Source: an uncultured Lachnospiraceae bacterium (GTDB taxonomy: Bacteria; Bacillota; Clostridia; Lachnospirales; Lachnospiraceae). From it: a stretch of 33,885 nucleotides of DNA. This document shows positions 11,263-32,758 of the stretch, one piece after another. A program made the position numbers and the translations under genes. The notes beneath the pieces were generated by a model. It was not told the DNA's origin. It made no database searches and saw nothing but the letters and a program-made list of their open reading frames with translations. The stretch's first letter is position 1, and the number at the start of each line of letters is the position of its first letter. The stretch lies in NCBI GenBank assembly GCA_947629545.1, contig CANREE010000024.1, forward strand, positions 1 through 33,885, read 5' to 3'.

Positions 11263-11343
11263 GGACCTTCCACCTTCCCCTGATATTCTGCATCAAAGTA
11301 TACCACAGAAACAAACAATACACAATCAATTTCGAAAGAATCC

Positions 11344-11378: not shown

Positions 11379-11403
11379 GGATCAGATGATTCTATCTGGC
11401 CTG

Positions 11404-12678: not shown

Positions 12679-12703
12679 AATAGTTTCCTCCTCATTCTTT
12701 CTT

Positions 12704-12771
12704 TGCCGGACTGTTTCCGGCACGCGCAATTGCGCTTTTTGTCAGTTTTTAAGGAGTTATTTCCTCAAAAA
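12704..12771 (-). promoter_or_regulatory. Structured leader of the liv operon
   Basis: Three dyads are packed in the ~95-base leader. Next to the transcription start, 12746-12755 pairs with 12762-12771 (TTTTTGAGGA-type, one mismatch). Next is a perfect 12-bp palindrome gcgcaattgcgc (12724-12735). Then 12704-12710 pairs with 12716-12722 (tgccgga/tccggca). No known riboswitch or T-box motif was recognised. Confidence 0.5.
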
Positions 12772-14280: not shown

Positions 14281-14297
14281 CGCAGAACCGTCCTTTC

Positions 14298-16941: not shown

Positions 16942-19140
16942 TCAGTCAGCGATGGAAACCGTCAGGCAGCGCACCTTCTGTCCGGTCAAGGCCGCCGACC
17001 GCGCGTCCGGTCCCTGGCCGCCCACATAGACAAGCGCTTCGCCGCTGTGAATATGGAAATGTCCCTCTTCATCGTAAAGCCCGAACGCCTCCTTCGGAAG
17101 CGCGATCGTCACTTCTTTCTCTCCGCCGGCTTCCAGGCGCACCTTCCGGATCCCCTTCAGCTGGGCGTTGGGCGTGTCTTCGCCGGGGATCTTTACATAG
17201 ACCTGAACCGTTTCCGCGCCGGAGACGGTGCCGGTATTCTTTACCAGCGCATGGATCGTCACCGCCGCATCTTTTCCGGCCGGGCATCCGCTTCCCGCCG
17301 CATCCGGGCAGCGATCTGTCGTCTCCGAATGATCCGAAGCCGCTTCCGCGTAAATCTTCTCATACGAGAAGCTCGTGTACGACAGCCCGTACCCGAAGGG
17401 ATACAGCGCCTCCTGCTTCATATACCGGTATGTCCTGCCCTTCATGCTGTAATCCTCAAAATCCGGCAGCACGTCGTCCCTGTGATAGAACGTCACCGGG
17501 AGCTTCCCTTCCGGACAACAGTCGCCGAACAGGAGCTTCGCGATGGCCCTGCCGCCGCAGGCGCCCGGATACCATCCCTGCAGGATCGCGGGGACATGAT
17601 CCTGCGCCCAGTCCACAGCCAGCGCGCTTCCGGACAGAAGCACGAGGATCACAGGCTTGCCGCTTTCGCAGGCCGCCTTAAGGACTTCTTCCTGAAGTCC
17701 GGGCAGGTTCAGATCCGGCTTATCGCCGCTGCCGTACTCATTGTTGGCGTCGCCCTCCTCGCCCTCGACGCTGGCGTCAAGTCCCAGACAGACCACGACC
17801 ACGTCGCTGCAGTCGCAGACGCCCTTCACTTCGCTCATCCGGTCGTTGGCGGCCGCGAGACCGCTGGTCCGGTCCTTATACAGATGGCACCCTTCCGAAT
17901 ACATGACCCGGGCACGGTCCCCTACATAGTCCTGGATCCCCTCCAGGACCGTCCAGTAATGGGACGCGGTTCCTTCATAATTGCCCACCAGCGCCCTGCG
18001 GCTGTCCGCGTTGGGGCCGATGACGCCGATGGTCTTTATCCTCGAAAGATCCAGCGGCAGCAGACCGCCTTCATTCTTCAGAAGCACCACACAACGGGCG
18101 GCAGCCTCTTCATTCAGCTTCCGCATCGGTTCGCTGTCGACCACCGTATAGGGGATACGGTCAAACGGATTCTCCTCCTTCCGGTCCAGCACGCCCAGCT
18201 TGATCCGCGTCGTGAAAAGCCGTTCCACCGCCTCGTCGATGCGCTTCTCGGACACTTTCCCCTCTTCCACCGCCTGCTTCAGGAAATAGAACATTTTCCC
18301 GCAGTTTAAATCACAGCCGTTCTCCATCGCCATCGCCGCGGCATCTTTGTAAGTGGCGGCAATATGATGGCCGTCGCAGATATCCTGGATCGCGCCGCAG
18401 TCGCTGACAAAATGTCCCTCAAAGCCAAACTCGCCGCGGATGATCTCCTCGATCAGCTCATGGTTGGCACAGCAGGGCACGCCGTTGACACGGTTATATG
18501 CTCCCATCACCGCCTCCACCCGGCCCTCCTGGACGCAGGCCTTGAAAGCCGGAAGATAGGTCTCATAAAGATCCTGTTTCCCCACGGCCGCGTTGAAGCC
18601 GTGCCTTACGCCCTCCGGTCCGCTGTGGGCAGCCAGATGCTTGGCGCAGGCCGCCGCCTTTAAATATTTCTCATCATGGCCCTGGATCCCTTTCACAAAC
18701 CTGACTCCCATGCGGGAAGTCAGATACGGATCCTCCCCGAAGGTCTCATGGCCCCTGCCCCATCTCGGATCCCGGAAAATGTTCACATTCGGGGACCAGA
18801 AGGTCAGTCCTTTATAGATATCCGTGTCGTCTTTGGCCTGCTGGAGGTTGAATTTGCCTCTGGCTTCCGTAGAGATCGCGTCGGCGACCTTCTCGATCAG
18901 ATCCTCGTCAAAAGTTGCCGCCAGACCGATGGACTGGGGAAATACCGTCGCCACGCCCGCACGGGCCACGCCGTGAAGCGCCTCGTTCCACCAGTTATAG
19001 GCCTTCACACCCAGCCGCTCTACCGCCGGAGCGTTAAAGAGCGTCTGAAAGATTTTCTCTTCCAGACTCATCTGACTGACAAGCGCTTTCGCGCGCTCGC
19101 GGTACTGCTCCAGAAGTTCCTTGTTCTCTGTCAATTCCAT
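16942..19140 (-). CDS. GH3 family beta-glucosidase/beta-xylosidase
   Basis: Exo-acting retaining beta-glycosidase, 732 residues, no signal peptide. The (beta/alpha)8 domain carries YNWWNEALHGVAR, TFWSPNVNIFRDPRWGRG and TFGEDPYLTSRMG, then KHLAAHSGPEGVRH (K167, H168 bind substrate) and FVSDCGAIQDI with nucleophile D247. The alpha/beta sandwich follows (VVLLKNEGGLLPLDL, GLDASVEGEEGDANNE) and a fibronectin III-like domain (about 600-732, AETVQVYVKIP). The YNWWNEALHGVAR pattern favours the beta-xylosidase/glucosidase branch over N-acetylglucosaminidases, but linkage cannot be fixed from sequence. A Cys/Ala/Gly-rich insert (DRCPDAAGSGCPAGKDA) interrupts the start of the last domain. It is first in the cluster and GGAGGCAGG precedes the ATG. 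Confidence 0.93.
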   Translation of the reverse strand: MELTENKELLEQYRERAKALVSQMSLEEKIFQTLFNAPAVERLGVKAYNWWNEALHGVARAGVATVFPQSIGLAATFDEDLIEKVADAISTEARGKFNLQQAKDDTDIYKGLTFWSPNVNIFRDPRWGRGHETFGEDPYLTSRMGVRFVKGIQGHDEKYLKAAACAKHLAAHSGPEGVRHGFNAAVGKQDLYETYLPAFKACVQEGRVEAVMGAYNRVNGVPCCANHELIEEIIRGEFGFEGHFVSDCGAIQDICDGHHIAATYKDAAAMAMENGCDLNCGKMFYFLKQAVEEGKVSEKRIDEAVERLFTTRIKLGVLDRKEENPFDRIPYTVVDSEPMRKLNEEAAARCVVLLKNEGGLLPLDLSRIKTIGVIGPNADSRRALVGNYEGTASHYWTVLEGIQDYVGDRARVMYSEGCHLYKDRTSGLAAANDRMSEVKGVCDCSDVVVVCLGLDASVEGEEGDANNEYGSGDKPDLNLPGLQEEVLKAACESGKPVILVLLSGSALAVDWAQDHVPAILQGWYPGACGGRAIAKLLFGDCCPEGKLPVTFYHRDDVLPDFEDYSMKGRTYRYMKQEALYPFGYGLSYTSFSYEKIYAEAASDHSETTDRCPDAAGSGCPAGKDAAVTIHALVKNTGTVSGAETVQVYVKIPGEDTPNAQLKGIRKVRLEAGGEKEVTIALPKEAFGLYDEEGHFHIHSGEALVYVGGQGPDARSAALTGQKVRCLTVSIAD

Positions 19141-19362: not shown

Positions 19363-19401
19363 CAGGGGGCAATGCCGCGCAGCGCACGGCATCGCCCCCT
19401 G
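19363..19401 (-). terminator. Strong hairpin ending the eight-gene transport operon
   Basis: 19387-19401 pairs with 19363-19377 as a 15-bp GC-rich stem (cagggggc...atgccg) with one G-U pair in the RNA, a nine-base loop, then TTTCC. It lies 30 bases after the last permease stop. The T-run is short, so termination may be incomplete. Confidence 0.75.
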
Positions 19402-19430: not shown

Positions 19431-20495
19431 TCAATCTCCGCCAAGACCGCTTCTGGCAGCGCCCTGTACGAAACGCTTCTGCACGAAGCAGTACAGGATG
19501 ATTAACGGCAGTACGACTAACAGCGAACAGGCTGAGATAACGGCCGTCTGCACATACGGGTTGGACGGGTCAATCTGGGACAGCCACGCCGAATTGGACT
19601 TGGCCGCCGTGTCGATGCTCCAGCGGATATTGGACTGCAGCGAGCTGTAATGATAGGCCAGGTTGTACTGGCTGGGATTCAGCAGGCTGGAGTAATAGGT
19701 ATCGGTGTAGTTCCACAGGAAGCTCAAAACCGAAACCGTCAGGATGGAACCGGACATACTGGGCATCACGATCCTAAAGAACGTGGTCAGGAAGCCGGCG
19801 CCGTCCACATGGGCGGCCTCTTCCACCGAGATTGGAAGTCCGCGGATACCCTGGCGCAGGAAGTAGATATAAAGGCCGCTTCTCACGCCCATGCCCAGGC
19901 CCGCCAGAATAAACTGGGATGCCGGTTTGTTCAGCAGATTCAGCGGTTTGCCGGTCACCGCCTTAATGATTCCGAAGATATCGAAATTCCGGAAGGCGGA
20001 ATACTGGGCAAGCATGATCGCGTCGGGCGGCACCACGATGGTCAGGACCACGAAGAAGAACAGGATATTGCTGCCCTTAAACTTCAGTCTCGCGAACGAG
20101 TAGGCGGCCAGACCCGCAGACAGAACCTGCAGGAATGTCAGCGCGATCGTCATCACCATCGTGTAACCCAGACTCTTCCAGAAATCCATCAGGTTCCTGG
20201 ACAGCGCCATCTCCATGAACAGCGTGGAAACCTTCTGCGGGATCCACATCGTGGATTTGTCAGCCAGCACGTTAGGATCGGTCAACGCATCCTTCGCCAG
20301 CGTCCACAGAGGCGTGATCACGACAAAGCCAAGGCAGATCAGGATCACATACCGGAACAGGGCCACGAGGAACCGGCGGACCTTCTTCTGGATCGTGTAC
20401 TTGGACAGACGTCCCTTCTTTAAGTCTACCCAAAAGCTTATTCCGGCTGTCTCCTCAGCCATTTGCAGTCTTTCTTTTCGGCTCATCTTAGTCAT
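19431..20495 (-). CDS. Carbohydrate ABC transporter permease (MalG type), pair A
   Basis: Inner-membrane permease of a CUT1-type sugar importer, 354 residues from ATG 20495. There is a cytoplasmic N-terminal tail, then six predicted helices (for example RYVILICLGFVVITPLWTLA near 60, ILFFFVVLTIVVPPDAIMLA, and a C-terminal ISACSLLVVLPLIILYCFVQ). The EAA loop reads VEEAAHVDGAGFLTTFFRIVMP, the site that docks the ATPase. A large loop before the last helix (SSLQSNIRWSIDTAAKSNSAWLS...) is longer than in MalG. The start overlaps the preceding permease stop by eight bases, with GGGGG nine bases upstream. A much longer in-frame start lies inside the previous gene and is rejected. It is last in the operon. 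Confidence 0.92.
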   Translation of the reverse strand: MTKMSRKERLQMAEETAGISFWVDLKKGRLSKYTIQKKVRRFLVALFRYVILICLGFVVITPLWTLAKDALTDPNVLADKSTMWIPQKVSTLFMEMALSRNLMDFWKSLGYTMVMTIALTFLQVLSAGLAAYSFARLKFKGSNILFFFVVLTIVVPPDAIMLAQYSAFRNFDIFGIIKAVTGKPLNLLNKPASQFILAGLGMGVRSGLYIYFLRQGIRGLPISVEEAAHVDGAGFLTTFFRIVMPSMSGSILTVSVLSFLWNYTDTYYSSLLNPSQYNLAYHYSSLQSNIRWSIDTAAKSNSAWLSQIDPSNPYVQTAVISACSLLVVLPLIILYCFVQKRFVQGAARSGLGGD

Positions 20496-21435
20496 AGTAG
20501 AACACCCCCTTGGATACAATGCCGCAGATGATTCCGATGGTGGCCAGCGTAAGCGCAAAGTACACAAAGCTCATGGCCGCGCCGTAGCCGTAATACTGGC
20601 TGGCGCCCTGGAATGTCTGAGAGCGGATGTATTCTGCGAGAACCACGTCTTTGCCGTTTAAGGTAACCTCAGCTGTCGCGAAGGACTCCGCGATACTGTA
20701 TACCAGGCATACCAGGATGGTCGGGGAGACCATCGGCAGCGTGATCTTACAGAAGGTTTCAAATGACGTACATCCTTCCATCTGGGCAACCTCGTAAAGA
20801 CTCGGGGAGATCGCCTGAAGGCCGGATAAAAACAGCAGGATCTGCACACCGCAGGTCGTGATGACCGTGAAGATATTCTCCACATAGCTGGTAAGCAGAG
20901 AACTGATCTCCTGCGGGATACCGGAATTCACGACCAGTTCCGTCAGCCATTCCATGTTCATGACCGATTCGGAGGTCTGGGTCGTCAGCGACGCCTCGCT
21001 TAAGTTGAAGGTCGCGATACCGGTCGCCAGGATGATCGGGATCACGAAGATCGCCCGGAAGAATCCTCTCCCTTTGTATTCTCCGTTCAGCATGATCGCG
21101 ATGAACAGGGAAAGGAAGATCTGGAACGGCAGCTCCGTCAGCATGTTGAGGAACGCTTCCGTCAGCATCCGGGTGAAATCCGGGTTCACAGTCAGTACAT
21201 ACTTGAAGTTCTCCAGTCCGATAAAGGTTCCGGTAAAACTGGTATCAGTCAGCTGCATGCTGCTTAAGGAGTAGCGCAGCGTATTCACCATAGGCCTAAG
21301 GAAGAAGAAAATCAAGCCGATCAACCATGGGAGCAGAAAGATTACGCCCCATAACGCAGTCTTTTTCTCGAAATCCATCTTCTTGTAGGAGAAACTGAAG
21401 GATTTCTTAACTGCTTTGTTCTTGTTCTTTTTCAT
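20488..21435 (-). CDS. Carbohydrate ABC transporter permease (MalF/UgpA type), pair A
   Basis: The partner of the permease that overlaps its end, 315 residues. After a basic N-terminus (MKKNKNKAVKKSFSFSYKK) come six predicted helices, starting LWGVIFLLPWLIGLIFFFLR, the usual MalF/UgpA-type opening. FRAIFVIPIILATGIATFNL follows, and the EAA loop is LYEVAQMEGCTSFETFCKITLP. There is a short extracytoplasmic insert (SLTTQTSESVMNMEWLTELV) between helices. AAGGAGG before the ATG overlaps the stop of the DUF5696-like gene, which implies coupled translation with that lipoprotein. Confidence 0.93.
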   Translation of the reverse strand: MKKNKNKAVKKSFSFSYKKMDFEKKTALWGVIFLLPWLIGLIFFFLRPMVNTLRYSLSSMQLTDTSFTGTFIGLENFKYVLTVNPDFTRMLTEAFLNMLTELPFQIFLSLFIAIMLNGEYKGRGFFRAIFVIPIILATGIATFNLSEASLTTQTSESVMNMEWLTELVVNSGIPQEISSLLTSYVENIFTVITTCGVQILLFLSGLQAISPSLYEVAQMEGCTSFETFCKITLPMVSPTILVCLVYSIAESFATAEVTLNGKDVVLAEYIRSQTFQGASQYYGYGAAMSFVYFALTLATIGIICGIVSKGVFYYD

Positions 21436-21447
21436 CTTAGCTCCTCC

Positions 21448-24018
21448 TTATTGAATCACGTAACTGAGTGCCGGCACCGAAACCCCATCGATGGTCTCAT
21501 CCACGTCGCTGTAGTTGAAGTACACCTTCGCGCCGTTGGAGTAAGTCACGATCCGCAGGTATTCATTGCGGTCATACAGCTCATGCTCGGTGATCACAGC
21601 GTCCTTCGTCGCGTTGAAGAAGGTCTGATAGTCATTGTAATACTTGACGATACGGTCCTTCCAGTAGCTGTAATCTACCGCGAAGTAGTGCTCCTGCTCT
21701 GTCTGGGACAGAAGCGAGCTGTCATTGTACATGAGCGAGAATTTCGGAGCGCTGCCGCCCTCCAGCACATGCATGAAGTTGGCGTCCACATCCGTGCTCT
21801 CTAAGTTCAGGGACTCGGAGGAGTATGTCTTGTAACCGTTCAGGACCATTTCCATGAACGGAATGGACGCGTCGAAGATCCTCATGCCGCTGTCCTCTGT
21901 CGGAATATCCGTCAGATAGTTACTGTAGGCGTAAGCGTCGCTGGCAGGATTGGAAAGCATGATGGTCATGCCGTCCGTCAGCTGGGCGACCGCTTCGTCC
22001 ATGATCTGCCGTCCGGTGGATGGCGAGACCTGCTTCTCCTGATAGTTGGTCGGGATAAATGTAAACAGGTCGCTGGTCGCCATAGTGGTAAGGCCGATCT
22101 TCTTCTGGTAGGAGGATTTCACCTTTTCCAGATACTTCTCAATATAGTTCGGGTTGATGATGTAAAGCGGATAATCATTCTCGTCTTCCGTCTCCACTTT
22201 CCTCTCTACGGGGTCGAAGGAATAGACCTGAGCACGCTCGTTGATCACATTCCAGGCCACCGCCTCGTTGCTCAGCTTCTTCTTGGTATAAGCCGTCTGA
22301 AGCTGCAAGTTCGGGAAGATCTGGGCACCGATGGAATCCGCGTAGGACTTCAGGCTGTTCCAGTCGGAGGAGCCGCCCAGTCCGGACGCGAAGCTGATCC
22401 CCTTATCCAGAGATCTCTGGTTCATTCCGCCGTTCACCATACCGCTGTAAAGGAGCTTGATGTTCTTAACGCCGGCGCCGTTCAGATCACCTAAGATCTC
22501 CTGCGCCTGCTTAAAGGAAGTCAGCGTCTGCTTGCCGTCATAGGGAATGCCAAGCATAAACTGGGTCTTGTCCGTGGAACCCATCAGTTCCACATAGAAC
22601 GGAGCGTCATCCTCGGCTGCTTCGCTGGAAAGGCCTCTCTCCACCAGATAATCGGCATAGCAGTTGGCCATATCCACATAGTCCGCGTCCTCGCCGAGCC
22701 ACTTATAACGAACCCTGATCAGGTCGTCATAAACATCGTTGGTGGCCTTATAGAGCGTGAACTCACCGGCCGAGTTCGAAGCGCCTGTACTTACCGCCTG
22801 CTGGGTCTGGATATCAAAGGAGAGCTTCAGCTTGCAGAAAGGCTCCGCGTTATCCTGGCCGCTCACATAAGCATCCATGAACGCCACCTCGGCTCCATCC
22901 TCGATGATGCCGAAGATGGTGCTGTCCGAAGTCTTCATGCCGAACACCGGCATCATAACTTCTTTCTTCTGCTGATAAGTCGTCGCGTTGACCAGCTGGT
23001 CGCCGTTATAGAACGCGCTGGCGAAATGATACTCTTTCACCTTGTCGCTGTCCAGATAGATCAGGGCGCCGCTTCCGTCCGGAATGAACATATAGCCTTC
23101 CTCGAGATCCTTGTCAGCCGCGGAGGTCAGGAAATACGGAATCAGCTCCAGCTTGTTGATCGGGTTGTCAACTCCCGTCTCGATCATCTTGGTGTCCACG
23201 CTCACGACCAGATCCCCGTCCTCCAGCGTATATTCCACTGGAACGCTGATAAACAGGTTGCTGGGGTAGTCTTCCGGCGCTACAGCCTCGGCCTCCAGAT
23301 CTTCGAGCAGATGCTCTTCCGTATACTGGCCGACCTCATAGAAGAGGTTTTTCACTTCCTTCAGAGCAAGATTACCAATCTTGTTCTGGTCGTTGGTATT
23401 GAACTTACGCTGCCAGGTGCCGTTGGACATCTGGGTGTAATAGCTGTTCTTCAGGACATTGAGCTGTCCGGCGTCCAGGTACTGGATTACGAACTCGTTC
23501 ATACGCTCGTCGGAAATACGGATCGGGAAATTCTTGTAGGTAAAATCATTATTTCCCATCATATAGACGATGCGAATGCCGTTGTCCAGTTTCTGATAGC
23601 AGAGCTGATCCAGCTCCACGCACATGCTGTAGGAATCGAATGTGGAAACCGTATCATACAGCTTGTTGTTGCGCTTCGTACCGGAAAAATAGGTCACGAG
23701 CACGTCGGAGCGCTGACGGGCAGACAGATTGCCCATGCCCTCGCTGTGGGTCATATTGGTATCCTGATAGGCGCCTGTCGCGGTATCATACCAGCGAACC
23801 ACGCCGGAGTTCGGATTCAGCTGAAGCTGCATGCCGGAGTTCTCCGCCACCACGACGAAATCATTGCCTTTCAGGGTCGTATCAAATTCCTGATTCGCCC
23901 AGTAGTCCGTCAGGGCCGGCGCCGTATCCGTCGAAGTATCAGAGGAGGAACATCCGGCCAGAAGCGTGAGGCTAAGAACCGAAAGACCCAAAAACAATCC
24001 AATTCTATCTTTTCTCAT
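21448..24018 (-). CDS. Large surface lipoprotein, DUF5696-like, with glycosidase-like architecture
   Basis: 856 residues. Signal peptide with lipobox LLAGC (C23), so it is anchored outside the membrane. I read three parts. About 35-470 is a beta-rich sandwich (FVVVAENSGMQLQLNPNSGVVRWYD...). About 475-760 is an alternating alpha/beta region like a TIM barrel (GAGVKNIKLLYSGMVNGGMN, SLKSYADSIGAQIFPNLQLQ, GLTTMATSDLFTFIP, then SIPFMEMVLNGYKTYSSESL). About 770-856 is a small beta domain ending YVIQ. The layout resembles GH36/GH101-like glycosidases, and I associate the sequence with DUF5696 from memory. No catalytic pair is established. The place between two permease pairs suggests a role in handling the same glycan. 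The start has GGAAGGAGG. Confidence 0.75.
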   Translation of the reverse strand: MRKDRIGLFLGLSVLSLTLLAGCSSSDTSTDTAPALTDYWANQEFDTTLKGNDFVVVAENSGMQLQLNPNSGVVRWYDTATGAYQDTNMTHSEGMGNLSARQRSDVLVTYFSGTKRNNKLYDTVSTFDSYSMCVELDQLCYQKLDNGIRIVYMMGNNDFTYKNFPIRISDERMNEFVIQYLDAGQLNVLKNSYYTQMSNGTWQRKFNTNDQNKIGNLALKEVKNLFYEVGQYTEEHLLEDLEAEAVAPEDYPSNLFISVPVEYTLEDGDLVVSVDTKMIETGVDNPINKLELIPYFLTSAADKDLEEGYMFIPDGSGALIYLDSDKVKEYHFASAFYNGDQLVNATTYQQKKEVMMPVFGMKTSDSTIFGIIEDGAEVAFMDAYVSGQDNAEPFCKLKLSFDIQTQQAVSTGASNSAGEFTLYKATNDVYDDLIRVRYKWLGEDADYVDMANCYADYLVERGLSSEAAEDDAPFYVELMGSTDKTQFMLGIPYDGKQTLTSFKQAQEILGDLNGAGVKNIKLLYSGMVNGGMNQRSLDKGISFASGLGGSSDWNSLKSYADSIGAQIFPNLQLQTAYTKKKLSNEAVAWNVINERAQVYSFDPVERKVETEDENDYPLYIINPNYIEKYLEKVKSSYQKKIGLTTMATSDLFTFIPTNYQEKQVSPSTGRQIMDEAVAQLTDGMTIMLSNPASDAYAYSNYLTDIPTEDSGMRIFDASIPFMEMVLNGYKTYSSESLNLESTDVDANFMHVLEGGSAPKFSLMYNDSSLLSQTEQEHYFAVDYSYWKDRIVKYYNDYQTFFNATKDAVITEHELYDRNEYLRIVTYSNGAKVYFNYSDVDETIDGVSVPALSYVIQ

Positions 24019-24034
24019 CTCTCCCGCCTCCTTC

Positions 24035-26113
24035 CTAACTTACCATCCGGATCTCTCTTGCGATTTCGATCACGTCATTGACGAACTTGGCAAGAAGAGT
24101 CGCGAACAGCATCGCTACGAAACAAATAATCAGGATCGCCACCGCCGACAGAATCAGCGTGGCCACGTTCTTCGTAAATGTATACTGGTGCACCATGATG
24201 GTACCGATAAACATATAGAAGAAGAACAGTACAATTCCGAAGATGAACAGCGCGCTCACCAGGGCCGCCTCATCCAGCGTTACAAAATTGGAGAGGATGG
24301 TTCCGGCCAGGTACAGCCAGCAGGCAGGATACAGGGAGTATCCGACTACCTTGATGATATGCACCAGCTTGCCCTTGCCGCTCATCAGAACGCCGACCGC
24401 CCAGTTGCCTGCGATAAACGCCACATACGGGAGGATCGCGCTGCCGACGATCATCGGCACGTTCACATTCTTAATGTCCACAAAGTCGACCAGAAAACCG
24501 GTATAGCGGTACTTGATCAGGCTGATCCATCCAAACGCGATGATCACGCAGATACTGAATACCAGCGAACCGTCGTCGTAATACTTCACGTCGTCAAACG
24601 CCTTGAACGGACTGGTCAGCACATAGCCGGGCCATTTGAACAGCGTAAACTTGGTCTTCTCCCAGAACCGGGCCAGCTTCGTATCCTTCTTCTGGGCAGG
24701 TCTGAAATGACGGTACACCTTGTACGCGACAAAGAGTACGATCACAGCCGCCAGAATTCCGATGATCTTGCCGAAGTTGGCGTCCATCCACGCGCCGGAC
24801 ACGCGGTCGTAGGCGTTGGAATAATAGGAGCGGTCGACACCGAGGTAGAAATTATTCATTGCCTCCTCATAGTCGCCGGTACGCATCTGGTATTTGCCGA
24901 GACCCAGGTTCGCGTAATAGAAGTTGCTGTTGATGTCCAGCACTGCCTGCCAGCAGCGGGCCGCCTCTGCGTAATCATATTTGGACTGGGCTACCAGACC
25001 GTCATTGATCAGCGCGCCGTAGGTTGTCGGCATGAACACTTCCATGGACTGGTATACGATATCGACCACAAGGATCTTGTCGTCCATGAAGCACATGCTG
25101 ACCGGGGAACGGAGCAGGCCCTTCTTGTCGCCGGAGCCGGCCAGTTCGTACATCAGGTAGCCGTCGGAGCTGTAGACAAAGATCCTGGACTGGTTGGAAT
25201 CCAGTACCGCGAACCTTCCGTCGTCCGCCACCGCAATGCTGTTTAAGTTGGAAAGCGTCTTGCCGTTCTCATAGTCGCCCATGGGATACTCGACAAAATC
25301 GTTCACCGTAAGAACATTCTCACCGGAGGAATTCAGCTTCCGGATCGGCTCCTCCTCGGAGTTGCCGCTGATGCTGGCAAAGATGAAGCCGTCCTTGTCG
25401 ATCGCCAGGTCGCTGTAGGTCGTAGGCAGCCACAGGTCGCTTCTTGCCAGCTGCTCTTCCGTCGCGATCGATCTCCAGAACAGGTTCCAGAGGCTGTAGG
25501 AAACCTCCGTCGCGCCGACATAACGGTTAAAGTTGCCTTCCGGGTCCAGCTCGACGAAGCCCTCGTAGCAGTTGCGGACCAGCACGTAGATACGGCCGAC
25601 GCTGTCAACCGCGATCTTGGTGGGCCGGTAGGCTACGGTCAGACCGGTACAGTTGGGATCTCCGATCACCCTGACGCACTGGTAGTTCTCGTCAAACTCG
25701 ATGATCTCCCCCTGCGCCTCTTCGCAGACATAGATATGTCCGTCTTCCGTGACATAGATGCCCGTCGGAGCGGTAATCTTTCCCGCGCTGCCGTCCGGTC
25801 TCTTATAGTCCGTGATATGTTCCACATGCTCCAGATCCTTATCGGCGACCACAACATAGCCGTTCAGGATCAGGTAAATCTTGTCATTCCGATAGAATAC
25901 ACCTGACACCGTGGACATACTGTCCAGATTAAGGTCACGGGCATATATCGTCTCCTCCAGCTCGTAAGCGGCCGGCGCGGCAGTGACATTGCCCCAGATG
26001 TCATAAGAATAGGTATCAGATGCATAGCACACCGTGCCAAATCCAAGGATGGCACACATTATGAGAGCAAACACCGCGACGTATTTGCTCAAAATCTTAT
26101 TTGATCTTCGCAT
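24035..26113 (-). CDS. NHL beta-propeller / TPR / Yip1-domain membrane protein
   Basis: 692 residues, function unknown. An N-terminal signal or anchor (KYVAVFALIMCAILGFGTVC) leads to an extracytoplasmic propeller of about six NHL-like blades (about 65-350): APTGIYVTEDGHIYVCEEAQ, PTKIAVDSVGRIYVLVRN, LAIDKDGFIFASI, LNSIAVADDGRFAVLDSNQS. Two TPR-like helix pairs follow (YDYAEAARCWQAVLDINSN, GDYEEAMNNFYLGVDRS, about 365-425). Then there is a membrane helix (IIGILAAVIVLFVAYKVY), a cytoplasmic basic loop, and a five-helix C-terminal Yip1-like module (FSICVIIAFGWISLI, GYSLYPACWLYLAGTIL, and others). The start has GAGGTGG. Gaps to neighbours are 10 and 16 bases, so it is clearly inside the operon. 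It could be a sensor, an assembly factor or a transporter accessory. Confidence 0.8.
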   Translation of the reverse strand: MRRSNKILSKYVAVFALIMCAILGFGTVCYASDTYSYDIWGNVTAAPAAYELEETIYARDLNLDSMSTVSGVFYRNDKIYLILNGYVVVADKDLEHVEHITDYKRPDGSAGKITAPTGIYVTEDGHIYVCEEAQGEIIEFDENYQCVRVIGDPNCTGLTVAYRPTKIAVDSVGRIYVLVRNCYEGFVELDPEGNFNRYVGATEVSYSLWNLFWRSIATEEQLARSDLWLPTTYSDLAIDKDGFIFASISGNSEEEPIRKLNSSGENVLTVNDFVEYPMGDYENGKTLSNLNSIAVADDGRFAVLDSNQSRIFVYSSDGYLMYELAGSGDKKGLLRSPVSMCFMDDKILVVDIVYQSMEVFMPTTYGALINDGLVAQSKYDYAEAARCWQAVLDINSNFYYANLGLGKYQMRTGDYEEAMNNFYLGVDRSYYSNAYDRVSGAWMDANFGKIIGILAAVIVLFVAYKVYRHFRPAQKKDTKLARFWEKTKFTLFKWPGYVLTSPFKAFDDVKYYDDGSLVFSICVIIAFGWISLIKYRYTGFLVDFVDIKNVNVPMIVGSAILPYVAFIAGNWAVGVLMSGKGKLVHIIKVVGYSLYPACWLYLAGTILSNFVTLDEAALVSALFIFGIVLFFFYMFIGTIMVHQYTFTKNVATLILSAVAILIICFVAMLFATLLAKFVNDVIEIAREIRMVS

Positions 26114-26123
26114 ACGCCACCTC

Positions 26124-27053
26124 TTATTCTTTCATACCGGATGTAGCCATCGTAGATACCACGTTGTTCTGCATAATCAGGAATACGATCAGCGGAACAG
26201 CGAACATAATGATCGCGGATGCGGCGGATATACCGGCGTAGGAACTTCCGACGCCGCTGATCTTGCCGCTCGCCAGCTGCTGTACCACATAGGCAAACCC
26301 CTTGTTGGCTTCGGTGTAGATGAACCTGTCGCCGGTGTTGGTCCAGAAGCTCTGGAACACCAGGATAAACGCAGTCACCAAAGCAGGTTTCGTAACGGGC
26401 ATCACGATCAGGAAATGAATCCGTACATAACCGGCGCCGTCGATCTGGGCCGCTTCCATTAAGCTGTCCGGGATCTGCTCCATGAAGTTCTTCATCAGGT
26501 ACAGACCCAGCGTGGACGCGAAGCCCGGGATGATGATCGCCCACTGCGTGTCCAGCATGCCCAGACGCGCGATGGTCAGGAAGTTGGGGATCATTGTGAC
26601 CGTGGCGTTGAACATCAGCGAGTACACGATCAGCTGGTTGAAGAAATTTGATCCCGGGAACTTGTATTTCGCCAGCGGATAAGCGCACAGCGAAGCGATC
26701 ACAATGTGTCCGATCGAGCCGACAACCACCACGAAGAGGGAGTTAAACAGCGACCGGGTCACAGGCACTACGGTGTTGGCAAGTACGTTTACAAAATCGC
26801 GATAGTTGTTAAACGTCGGATTCATGACCAGGATCCTCGGAGGGAAGATGAACATCTCGTTCATCGGCTTTAAGGACTGGCTCAGCATATAAATGACCGG
26901 GAAGAAGAAAGCGAGACCCATAAGCAGCAGGAACAGGCCCAGGGCCACATTCCCCCAGAAGCTTCTCGGAGTTTTCTTAACCGACGGGGCGAAATCCAGT
27001 TTGGATTTCTTTTTCTTCAGATAATTCGCTCTGATCTTATTCAGAATATCCAT
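26124..27053 (-). CDS. Carbohydrate ABC transporter permease (MalG type), pair B
   Basis: 309 residues, CUT1-type permease. A basic cytoplasmic N-terminus (ANYLKKKKSKLD) and six helices, beginning VALGLFLLLMGLAFFFPVIY, the classic MalG FPxxYMLSxS opening (here MLSQSLKPMNEMFIFPP). The EAA loop reads LMEAAQIDGAGYVRIHFLIVMP. I chose the ATG at 27053 (AGGAG eight bases upstream). A GTG two codons earlier is too close to the ribosome binding site. It ends 10 bases before the NHL-Yip1 gene. It is clearly distinct in sequence from pair A, so this is not a recent duplication. Confidence 0.94.
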   Translation of the reverse strand: MDILNKIRANYLKKKKSKLDFAPSVKKTPRSFWGNVALGLFLLLMGLAFFFPVIYMLSQSLKPMNEMFIFPPRILVMNPTFNNYRDFVNVLANTVVPVTRSLFNSLFVVVVGSIGHIVIASLCAYPLAKYKFPGSNFFNQLIVYSLMFNATVTMIPNFLTIARLGMLDTQWAIIIPGFASTLGLYLMKNFMEQIPDSLMEAAQIDGAGYVRIHFLIVMPVTKPALVTAFILVFQSFWTNTGDRFIYTEANKGFAYVVQQLASGKISGVGSSYAGISAASAIIMFAVPLIVFLIMQNNVVSTMATSGMKE

Positions 27054-27074
27054 CGTCACTTCTCCTTTCTCCCA

Positions 27075-28010
27075 TCAGGTTCCGACCTTGCGGAGCAGTT
27101 TCTGGATCAGCATGTTGCAGACGATCATGAGCAGGAACAGAAGCACCGCGATCGCCGACGCGTAGCCCATCTCCATACGGATGGAGCCGTAGTCGTTTAA
27201 GTGGTTAACGATCGTATGGGAGGCGTAGTTCGGGCTCGGGAAGCCGACCAGAGCGTCTCCAACGCTGCCGACCGACAGAGAACTTGTGATCGTCATGACG
27301 GCGCCGAACAGAAGCTGAGGCTTCATATTCGGGAGCGTGATGTACCACAGCTCCTGCCAGCGGTTGCGGATCCCGTCGATGGCTCCGGCCTCGTACTGGG
27401 CCTCATCGACGCCCTTAATGCCGGCGACGAATGACAGGAAGCCTACGCCCATGCTGGTCCACAGGGAAGCAAGGATCACGACGAGAGCCACATACTTCTC
27501 ATCAGACAGCCACAGGATCGCTTCCTTCGTGATTCCCAGGTTGCGCAGCGCGGCGTTTAAGTAGCCGTTGCTGTCGTTGGAGAAGATCTGCGCGAACACG
27601 GTGATAACGGCGGTGCCCGCCATACTCGGCGCGTAGAAGATCACCGTCAGAACCGTGCCCAGCTTGTGGGGCAGCTCGTTGATCATCCAGGCCAGGAGGA
27701 AAGAAAGGATATATCCGCCCGGTCCTACGATCACAGCGATGATAAACGTATTCTTAATCGCCGTGATGAAAATATTGTCATCCAAAAACAGTTTGCGATA
27801 ATTGCTGAGACCCACGAAGTTCGCCGGTTCCAATACATTGAAATCCGTAAAGCTGTACCACATGGCCGTCAGAACGGGATATACAACAAAGATCGCGAAC
27901 AGGATCATAAAGGGAGCGATCATGATGTACAGCGGGATACTCCTCTTCATATCGCGGAGAGTCAGATGAACTCTTCTCTGCAATGACATTTGATTCTTAT
28001 TCTTAGCCAT
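27075..28010 (-). CDS. Carbohydrate ABC transporter permease (MalF/UgpA type), pair B
   Basis: 311 residues, partner of the permease starting at 27053. The N-terminus MAKNKNQMSLQRRVHLTLRD is followed by six helices, the first being LYIMIAPFMILFAIFVVYPV, then WYSFTDFNVLEPANFVGLSNY, typical of UgpA/MalF-type proteins. The EAA-like loop reads YEAGAIDGIRNRWQELWYITLP, with the G-x9-LP spacing kept. GGAGGGGAGAG lies before the ATG. It follows the membrane-anchored binding-protein gene by 13 bases. Confidence 0.94.
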   Translation of the reverse strand: MAKNKNQMSLQRRVHLTLRDMKRSIPLYIMIAPFMILFAIFVVYPVLTAMWYSFTDFNVLEPANFVGLSNYRKLFLDDNIFITAIKNTFIIAVIVGPGGYILSFLLAWMINELPHKLGTVLTVIFYAPSMAGTAVITVFAQIFSNDSNGYLNAALRNLGITKEAILWLSDEKYVALVVILASLWTSMGVGFLSFVAGIKGVDEAQYEAGAIDGIRNRWQELWYITLPNMKPQLLFGAVMTITSSLSVGSVGDALVGFPSPNYASHTIVNHLNDYGSIRMEMGYASAIAVLLFLLMIVCNMLIQKLLRKVGT

Positions 28011-28023
28011 TCTCTCTCCCCTC

Positions 28024-30978
28024 CTATTCTGCCGTATTCAAACCAAACTCAGTACGCTTGTTGGTGATCTCGGTATTGATCGCGTCGAGTTCGATATACA
28101 GGGTGTCAACAGGTTCCAGATTCTCCGATACCACGGCTGTGAACGCGTTGCGGATCGTACGTCCCGTGATGTATCCGCCGGGGATCTGCGGCTCTGCCTT
28201 CAGATCGCCGGAATCGATGATGGAAAGCACCACGCTCTTGAACTCCTCGTTTAAGCCGCCGCCGCGGATCGCTTCGATGTTCGATACCGGAAGCTCAGCC
28301 GCTTCGCCGTTCTCCGCCTTCAGCTCGGTGGAATATCCGATCTGTGTATCCGCGTCTGTCCACCACTTCAGGAACTCCCACGCCTCATCCGTCATGCCGT
28401 CCTTCGCCACCGTGGAAGCCACGATGAAGCAGGTGCCGATCATGCTGGCTGCGGAGTGATCCACGGTGCCGTCCGCGAGACGCGTTCCGGGCATTCTGGC
28501 GATAGACCATTTGCCGGAGATCTCAGGAGCCGACACGTTCAGGGTGTTCACATAGGTGTAATCCACGACCATGACCGGAATCTCACCGGTACGGAAACGT
28601 GTCACCAGGTTCACGGAATACTCCAGACCCTGTTTGGTATAATACTCCGTCCACTTCTTGAATACGCTCATCTGCTCGATCTGATCCATCAGCGTCGCCG
28701 TATGGTCCGCGTTGTACAGATCATAGCCTTCCTGATACAGCATGGAAAGGAAGATGCTGTTGACGGGAACCGTTGTGGAACTGGTGCCGCCGCCGAGGGT
28801 CATGTACTCATTGCTGCCCAGATAGACGTCCATATTCTCAGCTTCCAGATAGGGGATCAGGGCGATCAGATCGTCCCAGGTCTCCGGAACCTCAAGTCCC
28901 ATGCTGTCCAGGATATCCTTCCGGTAGATCATCACCGGGAAGGACAGCTGATCCGGAAGTCCGTACACGCCGCCCTCATACTCCAGGAACGGACGCACGC
29001 CGGACGGGAACCGCGAGAACACTTCTTCAAAATCCGAGAACTTCGTCAGGTCGTAAGAAGCGTTGCGGTAAGCAAAGTTGGTGGGCTGGCTGTAGCTGGA
29101 CTGCAGAACCACATCCGGGCCCCTGCCTGCCACCGTCGCCGGAAGAACCGTATCGCCCTGAACCATGCTCAGGTTGACCTCATAGTCCTTATCGGCAAAC
29201 GCCGCGTTGATCATCTTCTGGATGATATCATACTGGCTCCTCACATCGACCGTGACCCAGACATCCAGCTGCTGCTTGTCTCCGGAGGAGGTATTGTCAG
29301 CATGGACCTTGAAGTCGTTGGTGAAAGAACCGACAAACGCTTTCCATGCATGGGCGACGTTCTGGAAGAAGTTGCCGTTGGCCCTGGGCAGCGAATAACC
29401 GTCGCCGGTCACGACCACGTAATCCAGTTCCAGCGGAACATTGTTGATGTTGTTGATCCAGTCGCCAAGCGCGGACAGTTTGTCATTATAATCCTTTAAA
29501 TATTTCGCCACGTCGTCGGCCTTCTTGATCAGCTTGATCATGCTGTTCATCATGTCGACAACGCCGGAAGTCTTGTTGGCAGACTCCATGGACTCACCGA
29601 ACATATCCACAACCGCATTCAGTCTCGTGTATTCCACCTTCAGGTCATCCGTCAGGTTCGGAAGATACGTGGTGATCTGATAATCGCGGTAGGTATCCGG
29701 ATCCGTACCGGTCACTGCCGTGATCTCACGGTAGAGATTGGTCAGGTTCGTCACACTGGTGCTGGCCATGTCAACCGCTTCCGCCAGACTGCCCAGAGTC
29801 GCTGTCAGGGAGATCGTATTGGTTCCTTCGTCAAGATAGAAATAATAATCTCCGCTGTCATCACCCAGATAACCGATCTGCCAGTCGGGCGCGTAGTTGA
29901 ACTTCAGCTCCGCAGCCTCCTCGAACGGGAGATCTCCGTTGATCCTCAGATAACGGGCGGAGTAGAATCCTCTGTTCAGATACTGCTTATAGCGGAACGC
30001 CAGTTTATAAAGTCCCGCTTTCTTTGTCTCCACCGTCCAGGTAAGCGTCTGGCCGGCAGTGGCCCAGTTATCACCGCCGATCGTATTGTAAACGATGTTC
30101 GTCGCGTGATACGGCTGGGTTCCTACAGAAGTACGGTCATTGTTGGGAGAAAGCGAAGAACTGGACTTCACCGAAGTATCCTCCGCCTGCACAAGCAGCG
30201 CGCCCCCCGGGATCTCGTTGGGAATCACCTTCTCAGCGCCGACTTCTTCTGTATAATACGTGTAATAATCCTTATAGGACAGATATTTTCTGGCCGGGAC
30301 GAGCGCCACCTCTCCGATCCCCAGTTTTCCCTGGGAGGAGGTAAATGTCACGGTGTTCTTTCCCTGGTCAAAATAAAACATATAACTGCCGACGGTATCG
30401 CAGTCCGTAGACTTGACATATGCCGTAGCCGGTCCCTCCATCTGGATCTGGGTAGGCGCGGCCTGATTCCCATCGACATTCATCAGCCAATCCTTGTTGT
30501 CGTCCGCCCACAGACGGTCGATCGTGAGATCCTCACAATCGGCGAACGGCAATTCACCATTAATATTGACATCACGCAAAATGCTCTGTGTGCTCGTGAT
30601 ATCCGGATAGTAGGTAAGCTGAATATGATATAGTCCGGCTTCTTTCACATCGAAATCGTAGGAGATGCTGCCTTCAGACTGGGTCCAGACGACCCCGTTT
30701 TCTTCCTGCAGTCCGTCCATCTCGGCGTCCGCGTAATCGGTTCCCGCCTTTACGATACTGGCCGTATCGTCTCCGACATAGGAATCCTTATGCTGGAACA
30801 CATAATCCGAGTACGACACCGTATCATCACCATAGCTGACATATTCTGCAAGAACTTCTTCTCTCGTCTGAACATATTCATCACTCGACGCAATATTCAA
30901 TGCTACAACCGCTACCACGATCAACGCAACCAGAATACATATATTGCGAATGCGGGTTTTGTTCTTCTTCTTTTTCAC
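28024..30978 (-). CDS. Membrane-anchored solute-binding protein fused to two carbohydrate-binding-like domains
   Basis: 984 residues from the GTG at 30978. One N-terminal membrane helix (about 11-29) without a lipobox. About 62-230 and 265-420 are two related beta-sandwich modules of CBM6/CBM35-like look, each with an AGLYHIQLTYYPD or AGLYKLAFRYKQY strand, an INGELPF or INGDLPF turn and a GKNTVTF or GTNTISL ending. About 420-570 is helical, with coiled-coil character. About 600-984 is a family 1 solute-binding fold (GRGPDVVLQSSYSQ, GVYGLPDQLSFPVMIYRKDI, TWDDLIALIPYLE, AWEFLKWWTDADTQIGYS). An alternative ATG at 31005 lies right after a stable hairpin and lacks a ribosome binding site, whereas the GTG has GGAAGG. 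Likely glycan receptor for the neighbouring permeases. Confidence 0.85.
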   Translation of the reverse strand: MKKKKNKTRIRNICILVALIVVAVVALNIASSDEYVQTREEVLAEYVSYGDDTVSYSDYVFQHKDSYVGDDTASIVKAGTDYADAEMDGLQEENGVVWTQSEGSISYDFDVKEAGLYHIQLTYYPDITSTQSILRDVNINGELPFADCEDLTIDRLWADDNKDWLMNVDGNQAAPTQIQMEGPATAYVKSTDCDTVGSYMFYFDQGKNTVTFTSSQGKLGIGEVALVPARKYLSYKDYYTYYTEEVGAEKVIPNEIPGGALLVQAEDTSVKSSSSLSPNNDRTSVGTQPYHATNIVYNTIGGDNWATAGQTLTWTVETKKAGLYKLAFRYKQYLNRGFYSARYLRINGDLPFEEAAELKFNYAPDWQIGYLGDDSGDYYFYLDEGTNTISLTATLGSLAEAVDMASTSVTNLTNLYREITAVTGTDPDTYRDYQITTYLPNLTDDLKVEYTRLNAVVDMFGESMESANKTSGVVDMMNSMIKLIKKADDVAKYLKDYNDKLSALGDWINNINNVPLELDYVVVTGDGYSLPRANGNFFQNVAHAWKAFVGSFTNDFKVHADNTSSGDKQQLDVWVTVDVRSQYDIIQKMINAAFADKDYEVNLSMVQGDTVLPATVAGRGPDVVLQSSYSQPTNFAYRNASYDLTKFSDFEEVFSRFPSGVRPFLEYEGGVYGLPDQLSFPVMIYRKDILDSMGLEVPETWDDLIALIPYLEAENMDVYLGSNEYMTLGGGTSSTTVPVNSIFLSMLYQEGYDLYNADHTATLMDQIEQMSVFKKWTEYYTKQGLEYSVNLVTRFRTGEIPVMVVDYTYVNTLNVSAPEISGKWSIARMPGTRLADGTVDHSAASMIGTCFIVASTVAKDGMTDEAWEFLKWWTDADTQIGYSTELKAENGEAAELPVSNIEAIRGGGLNEEFKSVVLSIIDSGDLKAEPQIPGGYITGRTIRNAFTAVVSENLEPVDTLYIELDAINTEITNKRTEFGLNTAE

Positions 30979-31012
30979 CCCGTCAGCCCTTCCGTTTCTA
31001 TGCATTACACGA

Positions 31013-31040
31013 CTGCGGCCTGTGGTTACACAGGCCGCAG
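31013..31040 (-). promoter_or_regulatory. Perfect 12-bp hairpin between the two binding-protein genes
   Basis: 31013-31024 (ctgcggcctgtg) is fully complementary to 31029-31040 with a four-base loop. No T-run follows, so it looks like an mRNA stability or processing element protecting the upstream lipoprotein message rather than a terminator. It lies 35 bases before the GTG start at 30978. Confidence 0.7.
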
Positions 31041-31085
31041 CCACTCAGCATTAAGAATCATACTTCAGTTATGTTTTGATCCGGA

Positions 31086-32627
31086 TTACTGTACAATTCC
31101 AAGTTCCTTCATGTTGGCGTAGCCAGCGTTCGCGTTGCTCTCGCCGGTGCTTCTCGCGTCGCGTCCGGCAATGATCTTCGCCATGTTGCTCCAGGTATCC
31201 ACAACACCGCTGTCGTCGAACGGCTTCGCCCAGTCATACAGAACTCTCGCATGAGCCCAGTCATACAGCTCGATATCCTCTTCCGTGCAGAAGTTTCTCG
31301 CTGTGCCGGCCGAGAAACCGATGGTCGGGGTCTGGCCAGCCTGCTCGGACTCCCAGGCGGCATGCATGGAAGCAACGCCGGTTGGGTCGATCAGCTCGTT
31401 GAAATCCTTCGCGATCTGGAACAGAGTGATATCATCGATGCCGGTTCTCGCGGAAGCGTCCTTCAGGACAACTGTCGGGCCCCAGTAAGCCTGAGCCAGC
31501 TTGTAGTTGTCGCTAAGGGTCGTATAGTCGCCATCACAGGTAACGGAGTCGCCCCACGGCCAGAACACGATGCCCCAGTCGCCGATGCTGTCGGACAGGC
31601 CGCTGGTCTGCCACATCTCAGCCATGGTCATCACATAATCCTGATTCAGGCCGCCGGTTCCGTACATCAGATCCTCACCGGTCAGGTTGTCGTCTTCGTC
31701 AAACTCCAGAGTAATCGGAGCAGCCAGGCCCAGATCGATCAGCTCTTTGTAGAACTCCATCGCCTCGATGTAGTTCGGATCCGTGAAGCCGATGGTTCCG
31801 TTAGAGCTTACAGACGGAACGCCGCCGTTGGCAGAACCGGCCATGCAGGCCCAGTGGAAATAATGGGTAGCGATGGGATACATGCCGTCCGGAAGTTTGG
31901 ACTTCATCTCGGTCAGGTATTCCTTCATGTCGTCGAAGCCCCACTCGCCCTTCATGAATTTCTCGGTCGGGGTCTCGGTCATACCGATGTCTTCCAGATA
32001 CTTACGGCTGTAAACAAGCATATAAACGTCGCCTACGTTGTCGAAGGTCACGCCGTATACATGATCGTTCCAGGTAGCCGCATCCGTATAGAGCTTGCCA
32101 AGTTCAAGTTCATTGTATGTATCGGTGATATCCGCCAGAACATCCGCGCCGATCATGGAAATGATCGCGTCAGGAGTAGACTCCAGAATGTCCACAACAC
32201 CCTCGCCGGCCGTCATCGAAGAAATGATCAGCTCGTCCAGGTTGTAGCCGGTGTCGCCGCCGGGCTCCGTGTAAACAAGGTCGATATTGTACTTCTCTTC
32301 TACCTGTTTCTCTGCATCCGTGTACAGGGATACATCAACCGTGGCATCCTCAGCCTTCGCCGGATCCAGGTTGTTCCAGTCGCCGCCGTAAACCTTGACG
32401 ACCTGCCCGCCGAAATCAAAAGCAGGTGCCTCAGCCTCTGCCGCTGTGGTCTCTGCCTCGGCAGCCGCTGCCGTGGTCTCCGAAGACCCCCCCGCTGCCG
32501 CCGCTGTGGTCTCAGCCGGTGCCGCTGTTGTGGTCGTGGTGCCGCTACCGCCGCCGCAGGCAACCAGACTTCCGACCATTGCCGCTGTCAATGCGACAGC
32601 GCCAAGTTTCTTGATTGACTTTTTCAT
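31086..32627 (-). CDS. Extracellular solute-binding lipoprotein, family 1 (carbohydrate ABC transporter)
   Basis: 513 residues, captures the sugar substrate outside the membrane. Signal peptide with lipobox LVAC (C24), then a Thr/Ala/Glu/Gly linker (about 25-70), then the family 1 binding fold: FGGQVVKVYGGDWNNLDP, EKQVEEKYNIDLVYTEPGG, DILESTPDAIISMIGADVLA, DVYMLVYSRKYLEDIGMTET and a Trp-rich ligand region (GDWGIVFWPWGDSV). The ATG at 32627 has AAGGAGG seven bases upstream. The longer in-frame start reaches into the promoter zone and is rejected. It is first gene of the eight-gene operon and is followed by a stable hairpin and the membrane-anchored binding protein. The ligand is likely an oligosaccharide, but the sequence does not name it. 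Confidence 0.93.
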   Translation of the reverse strand: MKKSIKKLGAVALTAAMVGSLVACGGGSGTTTTTAAPAETTAAAAGGSSETTAAAAEAETTAAEAEAPAFDFGGQVVKVYGGDWNNLDPAKAEDATVDVSLYTDAEKQVEEKYNIDLVYTEPGGDTGYNLDELIISSMTAGEGVVDILESTPDAIISMIGADVLADITDTYNELELGKLYTDAATWNDHVYGVTFDNVGDVYMLVYSRKYLEDIGMTETPTEKFMKGEWGFDDMKEYLTEMKSKLPDGMYPIATHYFHWACMAGSANGGVPSVSSNGTIGFTDPNYIEAMEFYKELIDLGLAAPITLEFDEDDNLTGEDLMYGTGGLNQDYVMTMAEMWQTSGLSDSIGDWGIVFWPWGDSVTCDGDYTTLSDNYKLAQAYWGPTVVLKDASARTGIDDITLFQIAKDFNELIDPTGVASMHAAWESEQAGQTPTIGFSAGTARNFCTEEDIELYDWAHARVLYDWAKPFDDSGVVDTWSNMAKIIAGRDARSTGESNANAGYANMKELGIVQ

Positions 32628-32728
32628 CAATAGTCCTCCTTTTAATGCATTTTTTATAGCTTCAACAGCGCCTTTTGGGGAAGCCGCCATTGTAACTATC
32701 AACAAAATCAGCAAACAGACTATTATAT

Positions 32729-32758
32729 TTATATAACAAGATATGACATTTTGTCAAT
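32729..32758 (-). promoter_or_regulatory. Vegetative promoter of the eight-gene operon with dyad over the -35
   Basis: Minus strand TTGACA (32758-32753), 18-base spacer, TATAAA (32734-32729), about 100 bases before the ATG at 32627. A perfect dyad tgaca-ttt-tgtca (32745-32757) overlaps the -35 and could be an operator half-site pair. A second TATAAT lies a few bases further down but at too long a distance from the -35. Confidence 0.75.

Follow-up and report, generated by a model that had tools for sequence, protein, structure and literature searches.

The 33,885-nucleotide stretch analyzed here (the window; contig CANREE010000024.1 of assembly GCA_947629545.1, from an uncultured Lachnospiraceae bacterium) contains a set of eight minus-strand genes belonging to a cassette that is real, old, and widespread. 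In the order of transcription, the genes encode a solute-binding protein (SBP), SBP1; a second such protein, SBP2; the permease pair MalF-B and MalG-B; an NHL-TPR-Yip1 membrane protein; a DUF5696 protein; and the permease pair MalF-A and MalG-A. Comparison across genomes reveals that the conserved unit comprises seven genes, accompanied by a binding protein that varies, and that this unit recurs across Bacillota. Based on gene order, co-occurrence, co-divergence, remote homologies, and motifs, we consider it probable, although well short of certain, that these genes together specify a tandem CUT1 ATP-binding cassette (ABC) importer, inherited as one set, which uses a shared ATPase and has the DUF5696 and NHL-Yip1 proteins as parts. 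If this is true, a widespread cassette with two permease pairs of different origin would alter our understanding of complex-glycan uptake by Bacillota, and a first role would be given to DUF5696 and to bacterial Yip1 proteins of this type. The name DUF5696 occurs in no paper of the searchable literature (most subscription papers lie outside it), and we recognized no experimental description of the cassette there, including in the searchable parts of PMC6344614 and PMC8990778. The cassette offers testable gene pairs.

The original prediction, made from the letters of this DNA, placed eight minus-strand genes in this order between 19431 and 32627, and all eight reading frames are open, with the order as described. 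It also gave gaps of 10–16 bases or overlaps apart from one gap of 107, and the measured spacing agrees: from 5' to 3', 107 bases after SBP1 and then 13, 15, 10, 16, 12, and -8, the last being an overlap. We take GTG 30978 as the start of SBP2 and ATG 20495 as that of MalG-A; the longest open reading frames (ORFs) begin further upstream, at 31044 and 20567, respectively. The signals proposed at the two ends hold in part. At the promoter predicted at 32729–32758 there is a promoter-like site (ATGTCA-16-TATAAT at 32749–32722, and also TTGACA with TATATA 16 bases on), but the evidence is weak because the region has 14 such sites versus 10.8 in shuffles. The hairpin at 19363–19401 is as strong as claimed (-38.4 kcal/mol, z -6.2, 0/200 shuffles), but it falls short of a classical intrinsic terminator because just UUU follows it, with no long U run, and a terminator scan of the region did not include it among its calls. 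Rfam at gathering scores gave no matches in the window, and no tRNA was found in it.

The gene order is conserved well beyond the window. We compared it with 66 further loci around DUF5696 genes, giving 67 in total, often several per genome; these were our own selection among the DUF5696 matches, with 61 short loci left out, and ORFs were labeled by profiles seeded from the window's proteins. The exact order SBP2–MalFB–MalGB–NHL/Yip1–DUF5696–MalFA–MalGA is present in 43 of the 67 loci (the window and 42 of the 66 others), and the core NHL/Yip1–DUF5696–MalFA–MalGA in 59; among the misses are loci cut by contig ends, loci affected by noise in ORF calling, and genuine rearrangements. An NHL or Yip1 gene directly precedes DUF5696 in 65 of the 66 loci with a gene at that place, the exception (L093) having an antisense ORF call there and NHL behind it. 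Directly after DUF5696 comes MalF-A (64/66) and next MalG-A (62/65). Thus, the neighborhood search that had been proposed as a check is strongly positive, and the two odd proteins are usually beside these permeases rather than apart from them. The idea of an eight-gene set survives in modified form: the set does recur, but as seven fixed genes plus a variable binding protein, and it is modular.

The same association is seen in whole genomes. Among 398 genomes of the phylum, DUF5696 is matched in 52, of which 43 are above the Pfam cut-off; 41 of the matches are long and strong, and the 11 genomes with weak ones were set aside (four weak matches checked among relatives were two α-amylases and two GH101/GH129-like proteins). 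The NHL-Yip1 profile matches 42 genomes at E 1e-25, and the SBP2 profile matches 48 at E 1e-60, 43 with the full protein and five, which were not counted, with the SBP part only. All 41 genomes with a full-length DUF5696, about a tenth of the sample, also have NHL-Yip1 and full-length SBP2, and we reject a chance combination on this basis; for DUF5696 and NHL-Yip1 the hypergeometric log10 P is about -54, a statistic that ignores genome relatedness. Only three genomes have one part alone, each at a contig end. In G158 and G200 it is SBP2, with MalF-B running off the contig, so that the rest may lie beyond it; in G282 it is a short NHL relative whose adjoining genes match none of the cassette profiles. 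G118 and G184 also keep SBP2, although it was located there on different contigs from the core. In genus g163, seven of the sampled genomes have cassette parts (G199, G222, G246, G312, G333, G354, and G373).

The cassette proteins also appear to have diverged together. Over 42 loci, the distance correlations of 21 protein pairs are 0.77–0.94 (0/500 permutations each). Pairs of cassettes within the same genome (n = 29, not independent because related genomes share cassettes), for which species history is not the cause, give correlations of 0.73–0.97. These data bear on the possibility that the operon encodes two complete, independent CUT1 importers for two products of one polysaccharide, for example a long and a short oligosaccharide, with DUF5696 and NHL-Yip1 as accessories and no joint machine. 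Such an arrangement would fit the finding that the stretch has a further SBP-like ORF in 43 of the 51 loci where SBP2 was called (ORFs of 300–760 aa at E 1e-6; the counts for the window and L034 include a neighboring LIV-type binding protein), that SBP_bac_1 occurs, among the matches listed, in 20 of 48 scanned genes after MalG-A, and that the two halves can stand apart within a genome. Independent importers, however, should be lost separately, whereas every genome with full-length DUF5696 has SBP2, even unlinked, and the halves co-diverge with each other almost as closely as the proteins inside each half do. We consider two independent importers unlikely, although by no means negligible.

The tandem importer finds further support in its permeases. 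All four window permeases match BPD_transp_1 above the Pfam cut-off; counted across loci, an EAA-like motif is found in 52/52, 47/47, 63/63, and, for MalG-A, 53/63 permeases. Judged by domains and motifs, the two permeases with an EAA coupling motif that define a CUT1 importer are present twice over. Pairs A and B form one clade each, with a mean identity between pairs of 21–22%, although membership of the groups was initially set by best profile, and so this test is not fully independent. Because the pairs are separate lineages, the doubling looks ancient, and we reject a recent local duplication. The closest known systems are CUT1 importers with a shared MsmX-type ATPase, which the cassette resembles in its binding protein, its two EAA-motif permeases, and its ATPase-less operon. 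It differs by uniting in one cassette two permease pairs of different lineage, in most cases a second receptor, and two conserved proteins that are not transporters; to our knowledge, known sugar ABC importers have one permease pair each.

The lack of an ATPase gene in the operon had been singled out, and no OB_MalK protein is encoded in the window, but this is ordinary for CUT1 importers with a shared ATPase, and we do not regard it as an oddity. Two OB_MalK proteins are encoded elsewhere in the host genome, so that a MalK/MsmX-type ATPase would be available, their link to the cassette being putative. In Paenibacillus cellulosilyticus, one UgpC-type ATPase (OB_MalK and TOBE domains) directly precedes the whole cassette. 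Multitask ATPases for such importers are described in the available text of PMC7658222, and that of PMC4452783 describes transporter operons of Clostridium phytofermentans as typically having two permeases and one binding component, most without an ATPase. Permeases, receptors, and ATPase availability are thus all consistent with CUT1 membership as predicted from sequence.

SBP1 has a lipobox (LVAC) and by itself gives no Pfam match above the cut-off, but a profile of its family matches CUT1 binding proteins in the PDB (best E 1.5e-34). The sole Pfam match of the window SBP2 is a sub-threshold CBM_35, a carbohydrate-binding module (CBM); among 29 relatives, SBP_bac_1 is found in 27 and CBM_35 in 9. 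By these family-level matches, both are predicted to be solute-binding proteins of the kind that serve CUT1 importers. In the protein between the two permease pairs, NHL (PF01436) and Yip1 (PF04893) are both above the Pfam cut-off, and TPR is below it. The two domains are fused in 34 loci, lie in separate neighboring genes in 28, and are otherwise placed or unclear in 5, a pattern that suggests that they act in contact. An AlphaFold2 model is all-β to about residue 362, with confidence partly good, and helical beyond, with low confidence.

The DUF5696 protein of the window matches its Pfam family at E 1.1e-141. A profile of 46 members matches, in the PDB, DagB (5opq, a 3,6-anhydro-D-galactosidase resembling glycoside hydrolase (GH) family 129; E 1.6e-14) through a main stretch, with two additional weak stretches close to the N and C termini, NagBb (5wzn, GH129; E ~2e-9), and a "conserved hypothetical periplasmic protein" (8rzg and 8rzk; E ~2.5e-14). 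A search for GH129 (PF11308) in 199 genomes of the phylum gave no match, controls included, and is uninformative. Standing in for GH129, we used a GH101/GH129-like family built around proteins of L017 and L018, which match Pfam GH101 above and GH129 below the cut-off (a 14-row alignment in which one protein appears twice). HHalign joins DUF5696 to this family at 99.3% (E 2.4e-20, 484 columns) versus 38% (SBP1, 64 columns), 2.0, 1.4, 1.1, 0.2, and 0.1% in six control alignments. By profile comparison, then, the predicted DUF5696 barrel is homologous to GH101/GH129-type glycosidases. The GH101/GH129-like proteins (L017, L018, and L132–L143; ~620–680 residues) are of note themselves: they are related to GH101, GH129, and DUF6259, have invariant candidate catalytic acids, and look like an uncharacterized glycosidase family.

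Fifteen acids are invariant in the GH101/GH129-like family, including D431, D439, E474, and E475, and from knowledge of such barrels we take D431 and E474 to be the catalytic pair. Their spacing of 43 equals that between Asp435 (PMC5698469) and Glu478 of NagBb. HHalign places E474/E475 on S689/N690 of the window protein, columns that hold Glu in 8 and 2 of the 46 members (10 in total) and any acid at either in 21. The acid/base-like Glu is thus not conserved in DUF5696, and the window member has Ser689/Asn690 instead. On the nucleophile side, HHalign places D431 on F654 (Asp in 4/46) and D439 on N658 (Asp in 38/46, a column conserved in the family but Asn in the window), and a placement by eye puts D431 on D650 (Asp in 19/46). 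For the F654, N658, and D650 placements, respectively, Asp plus Glu pairs occur in 1, 8, or 3 members and acid plus acid pairs in 8, 19, or 10.

With the acid/base-like Glu so rarely kept, and gone in the window, we reject DUF5696 as a plain GH129 enzyme. It could still be catalytically active at the cell surface, as a glycosidase or transglycosidase that belongs to a new family, has a layout unlike that of GH101/GH129, and cuts glycan for pair A, a reading compatible with a tandem importer. The remote relationship itself, the frequent Asp at the N658 column, which aligns with an Asp that is invariant among the relatives, and the conserved acids elsewhere would all fit an enzyme, and there is a precedent in DagB, whose homologues conserve just a single member of the NagBb catalytic pair according to the available text of PMC5698469. 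The scarcity of Glu, and of any acid, at the acid/base-like columns argues against activity, as do Ser/Asn at these columns and Asn at 658 in the window member; moreover, the site positions come from a remote alignment rather than from a structure. We hold an active enzyme to be improbable, if worth considering, and a binding role would fit the window protein best. DUF5696 is linked to NagBb and DagB by remote sequence homology and set apart from them by its mostly missing acid/base-like Glu and by its constant association with permeases.

These observations can be combined into a scheme for the tandem importer in which the physical complex, the direction of transport, the division of labor, and the substrate are predicted from sequence. 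SBP2, held at the membrane by its N-terminal helix, would catch glycan with its CBM35-like domains and pass it to permease pair B. The NHL-TPR-Yip1 protein would be a membrane scaffold with its propeller outside and, together with DUF5696 and pair A, could form the second half of the importer. There, the DUF5696 lipoprotein, whose GH101/GH129-like barrel has mostly lost the acid/base Glu, would serve at the surface either in glycan binding or in an altered catalytic role; it would bind or present glycan in cooperation with pair A and with SBP1, the variable lipoprotein receptor. A shared MsmX-type ATPase encoded elsewhere would drive both permease pairs, each of which carries EAA loops. In the subtype represented by the window, glycan may enter largely intact and be trimmed inside by GH29, GH3, and GH2 enzymes. 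A bolder version, which we find doubtful, is that all of these assemble into a single physical importer in which NHL-Yip1 holds together four permease subunits from two lineages and DUF5696, as a pseudo-glycosidase, delivers the glycan. It would serve to take in glycans of very large size or branched structure, which in the window subtype would be intact N-glycans or glycopeptides, dismantled inside by signal-less GH18, Transglut_core, GH29, GH3, and GH2 proteins.

Several points weigh against the tandem importer. First, co-occurrence is a functional link, not contact. Second, the co-divergence covers the seven cassette proteins alone, without an unrelated control protein. Third, the cassette is modular, with SBP2 and pair B apart from NHL-Yip1, DUF5696, and pair A in several genomes: L098–L101, L119, and L120 have the four-gene core without SBP2 in the stretch, and in L106, L108, L110, L112, and L125 SBP2 is placed after the core. 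Fourth, 10 of the 63 MalG-A proteins have no match to the EAA pattern. Fifth, the structural models are weak: the AlphaFold2 model of NHL-Yip1, made with five close sequences, has a mean predicted local distance difference test (pLDDT) score of 53.8, and that of DUF5696, made with six, has one of 36.5 and is unusable, so that the DUF5696 fold rests on profiles. Finally, the position of the DUF5696 nucleophile is uncertain among the F654, N658, and D650 columns, and with other acids conserved in the family (D314, D340, D716, and E753) catalysis is possible.

It is also conceivable that pair A, NHL-Yip1, and DUF5696 do not transport but form a sensing or regulatory device that gauges how much glycan passes through pair B and regulates expression. 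LacI is found, among the matches listed, in 5 of 37 scanned genes before SBP2, and a histidine kinase and response regulator lie upstream of the cassette in Butyrivibrio, as might be expected of such a device. The presence of EAA loops in almost every permease of pair A and of an extra SBP near most cassettes points instead to transport, however, and no cytoplasmic signaling domain was matched by Pfam in the eight proteins. We regard a sensor as very unlikely.

Table 1. Positions of the cassette genes, their signals, and flanking features in the window, with those of Transglut_core proteins in related loci (prefix L).
Feature	Position	Strand	Basis or remark
Promoter-like region upstream of SBP1 (TTGACA / ATGTCA ... 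TATAAT)	32722..32757	-	consensus match only
SBP1, predicted solute-binding lipoprotein, variable receptor of cassette	31086..32627	-	
SBP2, predicted N-terminally membrane-anchored solute-binding protein, CBM35-like domains in front	28024..30978	-	
MalF-B, permease of pair B, EAA motif	27075..28010	-	
MalG-B, permease of pair B, EAA motif	26124..27059	-	
NHL-TPR-transmembrane-Yip1 membrane protein, fused form	24035..26113	-	Pfam, hydropathy, AlphaFold2
DUF5696 lipoprotein, remote GH101/GH129-type relative, without acid/base-like Glu	21448..24018	-	
MalF-A, permease of pair A, EAA motif	20488..21435	-	
MalG-A, permease of pair A, EAA motif	19431..20495	-	assumed start ATG 20495
Strong hairpin after last gene (MalG-A)	19363..19401	-	
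GH3 β-xylosidase/glucosidase-like enzyme, no signal peptide seen	16942..19140	-	PDB E 9.7e-107 (xylosidase-like)
GH2 β-mannosidase-like enzyme, no signal peptide seen	14298..16865	-	PDB E 8.5e-142
GH29 α-L-fucosidase-like enzyme, no signal peptide seen	12925..14301	-	PDB E 1.1e-50
BT_1020-like propeller / sialidase-like-CBM protein, C-terminal part, cut by contig end	32791..33885	-	
Transglut_core protein	L035:16019-18856, L037:15747-18623, L153:2501-5365, L155:2077-4959, L157:5527-8343		

The genes around the cassette bear on what it might carry. In Gram-positive polysaccharide utilization loci, transporters and glycan-degrading enzymes are encoded together with a dedicated regulator; in the window, the contig ends a short way upstream of the cassette. 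Like these, the window has its transporter adjoining GH3, GH2, and GH29 genes, but the transporter here is a seven-gene cassette, not one SBP and one permease pair. The window GH3 reached no NCBIfam cut-off. Related loci of the window subtype also have GH130, GH18, a second GH29, and a Transglut_core protein, and in several of them, too, the BT_1020-like propeller protein precedes the cassette. By N-terminal hydropathy, no signal peptide was seen in nine proteins of the flanking-enzyme types (0.15–1.40 versus 2.11–2.64 in three exported controls), some of whose starts are uncertain. Because the neighboring GH29, GH3, and GH2 enzymes seem to be signal-less, the window subtype may take up, in intact form, fucose/xylose/mannose-bearing glycans that resemble plant N-glycans. 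According to the available text of PMC9522356, plant N-glycan loci of gut Bacteroides use a GH3 β-1,2-xylosidase and a GH29 α-1,3-fucosidase, and the β-1,4-mannose of these glycans can be removed by GH2 and GH130 enzymes; the families of the window enzymes fit, a matching linkage specificity being putative, although uptake there is by SusC/D and here would be by an ABC cassette.

Other cassettes have other neighbors. A scan of 48 genes after MalG-A and 37 before SBP2, which largely left out window-type loci, gave, among the matches listed, at least six GH43, four GH130, three GH10, two GH30, and two GH29, and at least one each of GH26, GH28, GH5, GH31, and GH18. Because the neighboring enzymes differ between genomes, the cassette likely serves several glycans, which refines the proposal of a single machine for one complex glycan. 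The Butyrivibrio fibrisolvens D1 plasmid pNP243 has GH43, SBP, two permeases, NHL, YIP1, DUF5696, two permeases, and two SBPs, and a plasmid of P. cellulosilyticus has the same set; both plasmid records matched are these. Among the loci found, those nearest to the window come from Lachnospiraceae/Acetatifactor metagenome-assembled genomes of isolates named "Lapin," presumably from rabbit gut.

Several observations touch on the surroundings of the cassette. Just downstream of GH29, window positions 7657–12729 encode an ABC importer of the branched-chain amino acid type (two ATPases, two permeases, and a binding protein). The Transglut_core protein that accompanies the window subtype (~940–960 residues) lies beside GH29/GH18 or GH130 genes; no signal peptide was seen in the two tested, and it is possibly a cytosolic glycopeptide-processing enzyme. 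Its matches to peptide N-glycanases reach just E 0.13–0.37, and a role of that kind is thus a guess. Two UNVERIFIED "Bacteriophage sp." scaffolds from human feces (MT835587.1 and MT835600.1; L162 and L163) have the whole cassette, SBP2 to MalG-A, and are most likely bacterial DNA deposited as phage. In P. cellulosilyticus (L129:21868-31091), genes for several LLM-class flavin-dependent oxidoreductases, one NADPH-dependent oxidoreductase, and additional SBPs come after the cassette, a setting that is unusual for a sugar importer and perhaps points to a sulfonated or otherwise modified sugar.

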